DNA from: Ancylobacter defluvii | GTDB lineage: Bacteria; Pseudomonadota; Alphaproteobacteria; Rhizobiales; Xanthobacteraceae | NCBI RefSeq assembly: GCF_018390605.1 | Contig: NZ_JAHBGD010000016.1 | Coordinates: 1-64,000, forward strand | Direction: 5' to 3' | DNA: 64,000 nt | Shown here: one piece after another, positions 23,244 through 32,389 of the stretch | Numbering within the stretch: position 1 is the stretch's first letter | How the letters are laid out: every line of letters starts with the position of its first letter | The notes under the pieces: generated by a model | Told to the model about the DNA's origin: nothing | The model's input: only the letters and a program-made list of their open reading frames with translations | Database searches by the model: none | Made by a program: the position numbers and the translations under genes

Positions 23244-25052
23244 ATGGTCAACGACGGCACTTCACGTTATCGGCAGAGCGAGCCGGGGCCCGCCCCGCGC
23301 CCGGCCGAGGGAAGGTCCAACGCCGCTGATCCGCTTGCCGAACTCGCGCGCATGATGGCGCAGGAGGACGAGTTCGCGGCACTGATGCGCGAGGTTCCCC
23401 GGCAGCCGCAGCGCCCTGCCGCCAGCGCCGCGCCGCGCCCGCAGCCAGCCGCGCCGCCGCGTCCGCAAGCCCCGGCTGCGCCGCCGCGTCCGCAGGCCTC
23501 GCCGGCGCCCCAGCCGCCGCGCGCGCCGGCGCCGACGGTGTCTTCCCCGGCTGCGGCCGCCCCGTCTCCGCGCCCGTCGCCGGGCTCCTTCGCGGCGCTG
23601 GCCGCCGAGGTCTATACCGAATCAGCGCAGCGCGCCGCCGCCCCGGCCCCGCGCGCCGAGCGTCCCTCCGTCGATCCGGCCCCGCGCGATCCGGCCCCGC
23701 GCCAGCCTTATCCGAGCGATCCCTATGCGCGGGAAACGCGGCCGGCCGCCGCGCCGCGCCCGGCGGCACCCCTTGCTGCGCCTCCCGCCGCGCCGCGTGC
23801 GCCGATGCCGCCCCCGCCGGCCCCGGTCTCCACCCGGGCGCCGATGCCCGATCCGCGCCGCCCCGTCGAGCCGCCCCCGGCGCCGCGGGCACCCGTGCGC
23901 GCCGAACCTGCCTTCGAGCAGCCGGCCGCCGCGCCGCCGCCGAGCTGGATGAGCCGCGCCAACCCGGCGCCGGTGGATCGCGACACCACCTTCGATCTCG
24001 GCCTCGACCGCGATGACGACGTCTATGATTATGGCCGCTCCTCCACCGACGACGATGGTTACGGCACCGCCGGCGACGAGGAGTACGGGCACGAAGCCGC
24101 CGCGGTGCCGCACCGCAGCCGTCGCCGCCTGCTGATGGCGGGCGCCGCGCTGGTGGTGCTGGTGATCGGTGGCGCCGGCGCCTATGCGCTGCTGCGCAGC
24201 GGCGGTGAAGGCACCACCGCCGGCGGCCAGCCGCCGGTGATCCGCGCCGAACAATCGCCCAACAAGGTGGTGCCTGAGCCGACCAAGACGGCAGAGGCGA
24301 CCACCGACGGCCAGAAGCTGATCTATGACCGCGTCGGCGGCACCGGCTCGACCGGCAGCGAGAAGGTGGTCTCCAGCGAGGAGCAGCCGGTCGACATGTC
24401 GCAGGCGGCGCAGCCGCAGCCGCGCGTCATCGCCCCGGCGCCGAGCCCCGGCACGCCGATCGCCACCGCCGCTTCCGGCACCGAGCCGAAGCGGGTGCGC
24501 ACCCTGACCGTGCGCGCCGATGGCAGCATCGTCGAGGGTGATCCCGCCCCGACGCCGGCGCCGGCCATCGCGGCGACGCCGCAATCGCCGCAGCCGACCG
24601 CCTCGGCGCCGGCGGTGCTGAGCGCCGGCACCCCCGGCCCGGTCTCGACCAATCCGCAGCCGCTCGCCGCCACGCCGTCCATCGTGCCGAACGTGCCGCT
24701 GCCGCCGACCCGCGTCGCCGCCGCCCCGGCGCAGGCCGCGCCGGCCGCGAACGTGGCGCAGACGCTGAATGCGGCGGCGAATGTCGCGCCGACCGCCAGC
24801 GGCGCCTATGTGGTGCAGATCGGCTCGCTGCCGAGCGAGGCGGATGCGCAGGCCATGTTGCGCAACGCCCAGTCGCGCTTCCCCTCCCTGCTGGCCGGCA
24901 AGCCGGCGGCGGTGCGGCGCGGCGACGTCTCCACCACCGGCGGCACCACCTATCGCGCTCAGGTCGGCTCGTTCGCCAACCGCACCGAGGCGGTGAATCT
25001 GTGCGAGCAGTTGAAGGCGCAGGGCGGCAACTGCTTCGTCTCGCGCATCTGA
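23244..25052 (+). CDS. SPOR-domain protein with long Pro-rich cytoplasmic region
   Basis: A 602-residue single-pass protein. Residues 1 to about 290 are Pro- and Ala-rich with acidic blocks and lack a fold signature. One membrane segment lies at about 294-316 (LLMAGAALVVLVIGGAGAYALL), preceded by HRSRRR, which makes the N-terminus cytoplasmic. A second Ala/Pro linker is followed by the SPOR domain at about 525-602 (GAYVVQIGSLPSEADAQAML to the end). SPOR domains bind denuded glycan strands at the septum, so a role in division or envelope remodelling is likely. nagZ follows 17 bases later. Confidence 0.88.
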   Translation: MVNDGTSRYRQSEPGPAPRPAEGRSNAADPLAELARMMAQEDEFAALMREVPRQPQRPAASAAPRPQPAAPPRPQAPAAPPRPQASPAPQPPRAPAPTVSSPAAAAPSPRPSPGSFAALAAEVYTESAQRAAAPAPRAERPSVDPAPRDPAPRQPYPSDPYARETRPAAAPRPAAPLAAPPAAPRAPMPPPPAPVSTRAPMPDPRRPVEPPPAPRAPVRAEPAFEQPAAAPPPSWMSRANPAPVDRDTTFDLGLDRDDDVYDYGRSSTDDDGYGTAGDEEYGHEAAAVPHRSRRRLLMAGAALVVLVIGGAGAYALLRSGGEGTTAGGQPPVIRAEQSPNKVVPEPTKTAEATTDGQKLIYDRVGGTGSTGSEKVVSSEEQPVDMSQAAQPQPRVIAPAPSPGTPIATAASGTEPKRVRTLTVRADGSIVEGDPAPTPAPAIAATPQSPQPTASAPAVLSAGTPGPVSTNPQPLAATPSIVPNVPLPPTRVAAAPAQAAPAANVAQTLNAAANVAPTASGAYVVQIGSLPSEADAQAMLRNAQSRFPSLLAGKPAAVRRGDVSTTGGTTYRAQVGSFANRTEAVNLCEQLKAQGGNCFVSRI

Positions 25053-29370: not shown

Positions 29371-30060
29371 ATGTTTGATATCGGCTGGTCCGAAATGCTG
29401 GTGATCGGCGTCGTGGCGCTGATCGTGATCGGTCCCAAGGAACTGCCCGGCGTGATCCGCAATGTCGGACGCATGGTGGGCAAGCTGCGCCGCATGGCCG
29501 GCGAGTTCCAGGGCACCTTCCAGGAAGCGCTGCGCGAGGCTGATCTCGCGGATGTGAAGAAGACGCTGTCCGGCTTCGCCGACGACACGCAGAACAGCAT
29601 ATCCAGCGTGCGCGACAGCGTGGCGGCCTCGATCCCGACCAATCCGCTGCACGACATCGAGCAGCAGTTGAAGGACGCGGCGACGCCGGTGGAGCGCAAG
29701 GATCTGCCGGCGCCCGCCGACCCGACGGCCCCGCCGTCGGCGCCGGAGGCGACCGAGCTGGAGCCGAACGCCTTCGAGAGCATCGAGGCCGAGGTGCGCG
29801 ACGCCGCCGACGCCATTGCCGAGGCGCCGCCGCAGCCGGTGGCCGTCGCCACGGCGACGGAGGTGGCGACATCGGCCGAGCCGGCCGCCAAGCCTCAGGC
29901 TGCCGAGCCGGAGATTGCCGAGGCGGTGGCCGATCTCGACCATCCGCCTGTCGCAGCCGCTCCGACAGCCAGCACCAAGACCGCCGAGGCCGATGTGGGT
30001 GCCGTCCCCGCCGCGCCGGCCGGCGATGACGCGACGAAGGCGAAGGGCGGCGCAGCATGA
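29371..30060 (+). CDS. tatB: Twin-arginine translocase subunit TatB
   Basis: A 229-residue protein. Residues 1-22 contain the membrane helix in MFDIGWSEMLVIGVVALIVI with the TatB Glu at position 8, followed by GPKELPGVIRNVGRMVGKLRRM, the amphipathic helix. A long Ala-, Pro- and Glu-rich C-terminus (about 95-229) is disordered and longer than in E. coli. TatB and TatC form the substrate receptor. The stop overlaps the tatC start (ATGA at 30057). Confidence 0.95.
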   Translation: MFDIGWSEMLVIGVVALIVIGPKELPGVIRNVGRMVGKLRRMAGEFQGTFQEALREADLADVKKTLSGFADDTQNSISSVRDSVAASIPTNPLHDIEQQLKDAATPVERKDLPAPADPTAPPSAPEATELEPNAFESIEAEVRDAADAIAEAPPQPVAVATATEVATSAEPAAKPQAAEPEIAEAVADLDHPPVAAAPTASTKTAEADVGAVPAAPAGDDATKAKGGAA

Positions 30061-30871: not shown

Positions 30872-32389
30872 ATGCACGACATCAAATGGATCCGCGAAGA
30901 CGCGCGGGGACTGGTGACCGCTCTCGTCCGGCGCGGCACCGACGAGGCCGAGGCGCAGGCGCTGGTCGACGGGCTGATCGCGCTCGATGCGCGCCGTCGC
31001 GACGGCATCGTCAAGCTGGAGGAGCTTCAGGCCCGCCGCAACGCCGCCTCCAAGGAGATCGGCGCCGCCAAGAAGTCCGGCGACAACGCCCGCGCTGAGG
31101 CGCTGATGGCGGAGGTGAACGGCTTCAAGACCGAGATCCCGGCGATCGAAGCGGACGTGAAGGCGGCCGAGGCCGAGCTGCACGACGCGCTCGCCGCCAT
31201 TCCCAACGCGCCGCTCGCGCAGGTGCCGGACGGCCGCGACGAGCACGACAACGTGCCGTATGACGCCGCGCCGCATGCGGAGATCGAGGGCTCGGCGCTC
31301 GCCATGCCGGCGATCCGCACCTACGCCTTCGCGCCGAAGCAGCATTTCGAGATCGGCGAAGCGCTCGGCCAGATGGATTTCGAGGCGGCGGCCAAGCTGT
31401 CCGGCGCCCGCTTCGTGGTGCTGAAGAGCCAGCTGGCGCGGCTGGAACGCGCGATCGGGCAGTTCTTCATCAACACCCACACGGAAGAGCACGGCTATAC
31501 CGAGGTGGCGCCGCCGGTCCTTGTCAAGGACGAGGCGATGTTCGGCACCGCGCAACTGCCGAAGTTCCGCGAGGATCAGTTTGCCGCCGGTACTTTGCGT
31601 AAGGTTTTTGATTTTAAGTACTATATCGAAAAATATCCCGAGTTTTCCGATACGTGGAATGGCGTCCTAGTAACCTTTATGGAAGGGCGCTTGGACGAGT
31701 TGGAGATCCTCATTGAAGGTCTGAGCATTCATCTTGAGCAGGCTGATTTTGCAAATCTTCGGGATGAGGTCCTACCGAAAAATCTCTGGCTCATCCCCAC
31801 CGCCGAAGTCCCGCTGACCAATCTGGTGGCGCAGTCGATCCTCGCCGAGGACGAGCTGCCGCTGCGCTTCACCGCGCTCACCCCCTGCTTCCGCGCCGAG
31901 GCCGGGGCGGCGGGGCGCGATACGCGCGGCATGATCCGCCAGCACCAGTTCAACAAGGTGGAGATGGTCTCGATCACCGCGCCGGAAAAGTCGCTGGAGG
32001 AGCAGGAGCGCATGCTCGCCTGCGCGCAGGCGGTGCTGAAGAAGCTCGGCCTGCACCACCGGGTGGTGACGCTGTGCACCGGCGACATGGGCTTCGCCTC
32101 CGCCCGCACCTTCGACATCGAGGTGTGGCTGCCGGGGCAGAATGCCTATCGCGAGATTTCCTCGGTCTCGACCTGCTCCGACTTCCAGGCGCGGCGGATG
32201 AATGCCCGCTACCGGCCGAAGGACAGCAAGGGCCCGCGCTTCGTCCACACGCTCAACGGCTCGGGCGTGGCGGTGGGGCGTGCCATGGTGGCGATCCTCG
32301 AGACCTACCAGAACGAGGACGGCTCGGTGAGCGTGCCCGATGCGCTGGTGCCCTATATGGGCGGGCGCACCCGGATCGCGGCGAACTGA
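30872..32389 (+). CDS. serS: Seryl-tRNA synthetase with an in-frame low-GC insert
   Basis: A 505-residue class II synthetase charging tRNA-Ser. Present are the N-terminal tRNA-binding coiled coil (about 30-110), motif 1 ([20 protein letters not shown]), motif 2 ([20 protein letters not shown]) and motif 3 ([16 protein letters not shown]). Between [10 protein letters not shown] and [12 protein letters not shown], which are nearly adjacent in ordinary SerRS, this gene has about 69 extra residues (about 238-306: for example [20 protein letters not shown] and [16 protein letters not shown]). I counted 87 G or C in 31591-31790 (43.5%), far below the flanks. Without the insert the length would be about 436, normal for the family. 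The frame is unbroken, so the enzyme is probably made in full. Confidence 0.95.
31583..31789 (+). other. AT-rich in-frame insert inside serS
   Basis: About 69 codons with A- and T-ending codons (TTT, GAT, AAA, TAT, ATT) that are rare in surrounding genes. The boundaries are inferred from the SerRS consensus: after Phe237 and before Leu307. No stop, no inverted-repeat ends and no splicing-type intein motifs were seen. It would lie on a surface loop between motifs 1 and 2. Confidence 0.65.

Follow-up and report, generated by a model that had tools for sequence, protein, structure and literature searches.

A hypervariable insert in the seryl-tRNA synthetase of Ancylobacter defluvii and other Xanthobacteraceae

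The 64,000-nucleotide stretch of Ancylobacter defluvii DNA analysed here (positions 1 to 64,000 of contig NZ_JAHBGD010000016.1, hereafter the window) carries serS, the gene for seryl-tRNA synthetase (SerRS), with genes for a TatA/B-like protein and TatC upstream and for SurE and PCMT downstream, all four of them ordinary (Table 1). The serS product matches TIGR00414 in two stretches at 472.9 bits, against a cut-off of 301.65, and thus belongs to the SerRS family; the class II catalytic core (PF00587) matches residues 303–479 at 133.2 bits. Also in the window, a TatA/B-family protein (29371–30057, + strand) and a SPOR-domain protein (23244–25049, + strand; the stretch is Pro/Ala-rich) have internal segments that vary in comparison with one or the other of two congeneric genomes, G011 and G017.

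Table 1. Features of serS and its insert in the A. defluvii window.
Feature	Coordinates	Strand	Remarks
serS, seryl-tRNA synthetase, 505 aa	30872..32389	+	Single ORF; TIGR00414; sole copy found in the genome (one match in the whole genome)
Hypervariable insert, residues 238–306, 69 aa, GC 0.454, four predicted helices	31583..31789	+	
Left flank, 10 residues, conserved; final ~20 bp differ between species	31553..31582	+	Junctions compared in 30 species
Right flank, 12 residues, conserved; first bases near-invariant in congener DNA	31790..31825	+	

As the earlier note on this DNA had claimed, serS contains an in-frame insert of low G+C content. The insert comprises exactly 69 codons in one open frame, the ORF confirms the protein length given in that note, and its count of 87 G or C in the 200 bp at 31591–31790 is exact. 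The G+C content of the insert is 94/207, compared to 0.689 for the remainder of serS, and the comparison of codon usage that the note had proposed yields third-position values (GC3) of 0.507 and 0.924, respectively. A 207-bp segment with a G+C content of 0.454 or less is found at a single place in the window, the serS insert (z −4.8). An assembly chimera is an unlikely source of this segment because the same two flanks enclose inserts in 22 of the 29 other congeneric genomes.

Searched alone against Pfam and NCBIfam, the 69 residues gave no family. Inteins start with Cys or Ser, end with His-Asn, carry splicing motifs and are longer than about 100 residues; the insert is shorter, starts with Ala, ends with Trp and has no Pfam match of its own, and an intein was rejected. 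A structured RNA was rejected as well: no unusual RNA fold was seen in the insert (fold z −0.26), and the lone Rfam match (13.2 bits, gathering cut-off 40) lies on the opposite strand and outside the insert. The location in frame, the low G+C content and the fixed site would also suit a protein-coding mobile element similar to the palindromic elements of Rickettsia, which had been the first suggestion made for this segment. That explanation is largely refuted, given that the insert has a single genomic copy (one match at E ≤ 1) and no internal palindrome (the sole inverted pair has both arms outside it), and that the inserts described below form 82 clusters, not one repeat family, with the two types that were searched found in serS only.

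The loop that holds the insert is flanked by the motifs QLPKFxxDQF and LIPTAE, and the content between them is hypervariable across the Xanthobacteraceae, so that the alignment of SerRS recommended in the earlier note revealed more than one window could show. In the genus Ancylobacter, sampled here at one genome per species (the closest case being two genomes 95% identical over 60 kb), serS was present in all 30 genomes searched. Inserts of 34–96 residues, which fall into 17 clusters (types), are found in 23 of these species, and a 7-residue linker (RAG[ED][ED]xW, RAGEDFW-like) joins the flanks in the other seven. When the window's insert alone was compared with the 29 other congeners, it matched only those of G020 and G010 (37% and 34% identity, respectively), both in serS. 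By the serS body, the nearest relatives of the window's gene are those of G017 (nucleotide identity 0.913), which carries an unrelated 68-residue insert, and G011 (0.909), which has no insert. The earlier note had said that a segment common to all close relatives would count against its view, and the segment is not shared in this way; as for the clade-specific, long-standing insert also considered there, the site is long-standing and its content is not.

Phylogenetic analysis of the gene body showed the same pattern throughout the genus. On the FastTree tree of the gene core, eight of the nine sister pairs differ in their inserts, in some cases with serS bodies that are 95–96% identical; two of the eight are weakly supported (0.78 and 0.62), and both members of the ninth pair are insert-free. 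On the IQ-TREE tree, the insert differs in six of the seven well-supported sister pairs, and a minimum of 21 changes of insert state is required for the 30 rows. A tree uniting in one clade the three genomes that carry the window's type was rejected (AU test, p = 4.5e-41), as was a single clade for the three carriers of another type, designated 'LNExGL' (p = 1.6e-5). The junctions are tight, with variation confined to ∼20 bp on the left and a near-invariant right flank.

The background against which this turnover has to be judged was examined most closely in the genomes G026 and G023, which are 95.4% identical over the 55,892 bases that align out of 60,000. At the DNA level, the identity of the two serS bodies is 96.4%, and their flanks are 96% identical right up to both junctions, whereas their inserts (60 and 44 aa) belong to different clusters and share 22% identity. 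Over 260 kb, in which 224 genes were called, the 164 orthologous pairs have a median protein identity of 98.3%. Among 1511 coding 200-bp windows, taken from aligned genes only (27% of the 260 kb is unaligned), 24 (1.6%) are less than 0.85 identical and three are mostly unalignable, two of them at the serS insert. The 260-kb comparison of frames found variable internal segments in one other protein, as well as in an antisense frame over serS. In the comparison of 44 frame pairs, none was flagged; serS was omitted from both of these comparisons because the longer antisense frame covers it, and the serS difference rests on the loop reading, the body identity, the 60-kb alignment and the coding windows. 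The one other variable protein is encoded by a 991-residue frame (L265:5562–8534, − strand), which we take to resemble a ComEC-type competence protein and in which the segments that vary between G026 and G023 are Pro/Ala-rich. The contrast is weaker in more distant pairs: serS and three other frames were flagged in each of the comparisons G000/G011, G000/G017, G017/G011 and G012/G027 (48, 35, 34 and 36 pairs, respectively), some of the flagged frames being antisense, truncated or of low complexity.

These observations bear on the possibility that the insert docks a lineage-specific cellular partner, such as a translation factor or a regulator, and changes along with it. Eukaryotic SerRS insertions and extensions bind partners, according to the part of the literature consulted (PMC10817482), and the conserved Trp at the end of the inserts (113 of 120) and the purifying selection within types, both described below, would fit such docking. 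However, G026 and G023 differ completely at the insert despite being 95% identical over 60 kb, insert-free species stand beside insert-bearing ones, so that any cellular partner would need to change just as quickly, and the four neighbours of serS are ordinary. We consider a co-adapted partner improbable.

Variation of the loop extends well beyond the genus. The family set consisted of 157 Xanthobacteraceae SerRS from 46 genera, namely the 30 congeners and 127 of the 133 further genomes of the family in which serS was matched, and included two partial loci (L181 and L242). Loop length in this set ranges from 7 to 98 aa, with at least 30 loop residues in 110 sequences, 9–29 in 31 and no more than eight in 16; the ends of the inserts were set by a regular expression or by an alignment anchor and may be a few residues out. 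The partial locus L242 (genome G093) has a serS frame of 298 aa in the fetched stretch, though the contig continues, and a frame break or a sequencing error is possible. In genome G032, of whose serS places one was read for the loop counts, serS matches lie on contigs C42 and C20, and two insert alleles may coexist (a contamination of 6% has been reported).

Most genera with more than one insert carry unrelated ones. An unrelated pair, defined by less than 35% identity and membership in different clusters, is present in 20 of the 22 genera that have at least two inserts of 30 or more residues; a looser count of 24 of 27 genera includes insert-versus-linker pairs. An insert and a linker of no more than eight residues are found side by side in five of the 27 genera, and a single type is kept in three (g24, g43 and g2, with two to four species read in each). 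Among 227 distinct SerRS from all sources there were 139 inserts of at least 20 aa, which grouped into 82 clusters, a number that depends on the phmmer threshold and on single linkage. In the remainder of the order, 16 of 104 evaluable genomes, the 16 belonging to 12 families, showed an insert in the form of a split match; three members of the Xanthobacteraceae, two fragments and two genomes that lacked a match had been set aside, and short inserts are liable to be missed; two of these cases adjoin insert-free species of the same genus. The other orders of the class yielded inserts in three of 62 evaluable genomes (after exclusion of two genomes that lacked a match and two loci that were broken).

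Insert types recur between genera, forming 23 cross-genus pairs with at least 35% identity. In all 23 of these pairs, identity is lower in the insert than in the body (at best, 0.79 vs 0.81), so the exchanges or splits between genera must be old, and no recent inter-genus transfer was caught among them. The old types could represent a long-kept polymorphism. A profile of the 'LNExGL' type gave 11 matches in 198 family genomes, one per genome and all in serS, nine of them at already known serS coordinates and two at new places that were read and found to be serS; since the profile was built from members that it found again, its informative results are the two new carriers and the lack of matches outside serS. 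The window's type, searched in the 30 congeners and 397 genomes of the order, was found in serS only, bar one weak match. No closer relative of this type turned up in the 397 genomes, which included one other Ancylobacter among the rows listed; the weak match contained a stop and was not a SerRS. Thus, for the two types tested, the insert seems to be confined to serS.

Of the origins proposed in the earlier note, a recombined loop from a distant SerRS comes nearest to these results. It is partly supported, in that both types searched reside in serS only and the carriers of one type do not group together in the gene-body tree; the searches of congeners and order genomes revealed no donor for the window's copy. 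The two relatives of this insert in the genus have G+C contents of 0.63 and 0.65, and low G+C is therefore not a property of the type; in the window's copy, it may mark recent arrival from an AT-richer host. Plasmids and viruses gave no source either: the 100 plasmid records with a serS relative were all less than 60% identical, and the loops in 63 parsed of 66 viral-contig SerRS loci have only 6–19 aa. The 66 viral-collection loci that encode a SerRS relative (L284–L349) include some on contigs of more than 400 kb, and some may be host sequence. serS is annotated on 73–260 kb plasmids of Escherichia coli and Acinetobacter cumulans (hits H17–H19, H26 and H27).

Alternatively, a mechanism such as targeted diversification could write new sequence into the loop. 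The sharp boundaries (∼20–50 bp) and the extreme turnover are what such a hypermutable site would produce, but recurrent, protein-conserved types in distant genera point to the exchange of old alleles, and a protein-level search of the genome found the insert only once. This mechanism is very improbable.

A search for known domains covered 80 inserts, i.e. 79 representatives of clusters, each with 30 or more residues, and the window's insert. At E ≤ 0.05, it gave nine families in Pfam, twelve in PHROGs and five in PADLOC, each with one member, and these scattered matches (best E 0.00046, to a CARF model of PADLOC) were taken as chance; no antagonist, partner or donor was found among them. One insert of the 'ERAPxKEDFW' type (L048:2095–2250, − strand) matched the VbhA antitoxin with an E value of 0.0045 and 17.4 bits, compared to a cut-off of 25.9, and this was likewise treated as chance. 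Related inserts of the same type are found at L054, L097 and L151.

In spite of their diversity, the inserts have several sequence features in common. Across 120 distinct inserts with 30 or more residues, the G+C content has a mean of 0.538, as against 0.649 in the bodies, and is the lower of the two in 110 cases; GC3 is 0.575 vs 0.846. The frame is open through the loop in all 237 loci, which is better evidence for coding than the absence of stops in the 120 inserts, where codon-position shuffles would give 237, because that zero is partly built in by drawing inserts from open frames. Trp is the last residue in 113 of the 120. Cys occurs four times in 7245 insert residues, compared to 104 in shuffles and to 619 in 50,877 residues of the bodies. 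A helical periodicity of hydrophobicity is seen in a positive correlation at lag 4 (z +5.1) and a negative one at lag 2 (z −12.1), but there is none at lags 3 and 7.

The structure prediction that had been suggested for the window's SerRS was carried out with AlphaFold2 and produced a model with pLDDT of at least 90 at 358 of the 505 residues. The insert is predicted to form four helices (residues 246–254, 256–270, 274–284 and 290–300) at block pLDDT values of 62–82, from an alignment that held no relative of the insert. For an insert from Aquabacter, a different, mostly helical arrangement was predicted, part of it at pLDDT 54–61. No solved structure resembling the insert was found at E ≤ 10. 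Because of the Cys depletion, the periodicity and the AlphaFold2 helices, the inserts look like folded helical protein; they would be compact helical mini-domains, not loose linkers, each fold being a prediction.

Selection on the inserts was estimated in 19 hand-chosen pairs with alignable inserts. In the ten with a finite insert dS and a non-zero insert dN, dN/dS was 0.03–0.29 for the insert and 0.06–0.28 for the body of the same pairs; of the rest, one had an insert dN of zero and eight had saturated dS. Within a type, the inserts are thus under purifying selection where it could be measured, and no excess of amino acid change was seen within types. The dS of the insert exceeds that of the core in all 11 pairs in which both are finite, and strong codon bias of the body could be the reason. 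A dN/dS below 1 equally fits a mere constraint on folding.

The latter point fits a neutral interpretation, in which a tolerant loop takes up any plug that folds well, plugs are exchanged by ordinary recombination and a misfolded one harms SerRS. Loop length also varies in other SerRS (6–19 aa in the parsed viral-contig loci mentioned above), and seven of the 30 Ancylobacter species do without an insert. Moreover, human SerRS carries in the same loop, near the active site, insertion II (G254–N261), which is described as having a negligible role in aminoacylation in the part of the study drawn on here (PMC10817482). Residue 266 of the human chain 8p7b_B (514 residues) aligns with residue 305 of the window's protein; if that chain has human numbering, insertion II lies 5–12 residues before the aligned point. 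On the other hand, the turnover looks far above background, affecting eight of nine sister pairs when only 1.6% of the coding windows of one pair fall below 0.85 identity, and neither 82 clusters among 139 inserts nor the near-absence of Cys would be expected of random filler. We regard neutral filling of the loop as rather unlikely, although it comes second among the explanations.

What we describe with high confidence is that a mini-domain, which fills a fixed loop in the catalytic domain of the essential SerRS, is replaced in the manner of alleles: close species with almost the same serS body differ entirely in what the loop contains. Its proposed mechanism is more conjectural. Recombination between the two flanks, both of them conserved, would replace the loop with another allele from a common pool, one member of which would be a 'no insert' allele in the form of the RAGEDFW-like linker. 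This pool may be kept diverse by a putative antagonist that binds SerRS, such as a phage protein or the toxin of a competitor. Such an antagonist would recognize the surface next to the active site, from which rare or new inserts would escape, and a bulky exchangeable domain could alter what binds to the catalytic face while leaving catalysis untouched. Frequency-dependent selection by a recognizer would lead to rapid turnover at one site, to old types that recur, to an allele that lacks the insert and to conservation inside each type. Diversifying selection by a putative SerRS-binding antagonist is accordingly the explanation we tentatively favour as the most likely one, at slightly less than an even chance.

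Housekeeping enzymes are expected to be quiet, and a domain swapped between sister species points to a strong selective agent acting on translation. If the antagonist is real, SerRS is a battlefield and its loop offers about 80 specificities collected by nature, counted as 82 clusters; a neutral loop would mean that an essential enzyme has an insertion site which is unusually permissive and has been tested in nature. The length of serS is a misleading marker in the Xanthobacteraceae.

Judged by titles and abstracts, the open literature (which leaves most subscription papers and bioRxiv out of scope) yielded no description of a hypervariable SerRS insert in these bacteria. The closest general description is that of segmentally variable genes, conserved proteins with a domain-length variable region for which a role in binding was proposed (Zheng, Roberts and Kasif, 2004; PMC387263). 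The sections of that paper considered here attribute the variability of aminoacyl-tRNA synthetases to the recognition of tRNA, and the word 'seryl' is absent from its main text. The serS insert is like these genes in combining a conserved protein with a variable region of domain length, and unlike them, as far as those sections go, in its wholesale replacement between sister species and in the recurrence of types across genera. Compared to the threshold of 70 aa used there, the window's insert has 69 aa and the loops of the family 7–98 aa; as regards the retention of function asked of such regions, dN/dS within types is well below 1 in ten of the 19 pairs, and binding is putative. Insertion II of human SerRS occupies the same loop, yet in the portion of its description used here it has eight residues and is confined to higher eukaryotes, whereas the bacterial inserts have 34–96 residues and are of many types.

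The palindromic elements of Rickettsia lie in frame in housekeeping genes, are repeated at many loci and are palindromic; the serS insert resembles them in its in-frame location in a housekeeping gene and differs in being unrepeated, non-palindromic and of many types at one site. Capsule and phage-receptor serotypes, self-incompatibility loci and MHC loci are characterized by many old alleles that are shared across species and differ between close relatives. In Xanthobacteraceae SerRS, types are likewise shared across lineages against the gene tree, as seen in the AU tests and the cross-genus types. It is possible, rather than probable, that the loop constitutes a serotype-like, trans-genus allele system of this family, serving as a counter-measure to widespread putative phage or competitor proteins. 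The serS insert would then match serotype-like and MHC systems in its allele pattern and differ from them in residing inside an essential cytosolic enzyme, with a recognizer that is putative.
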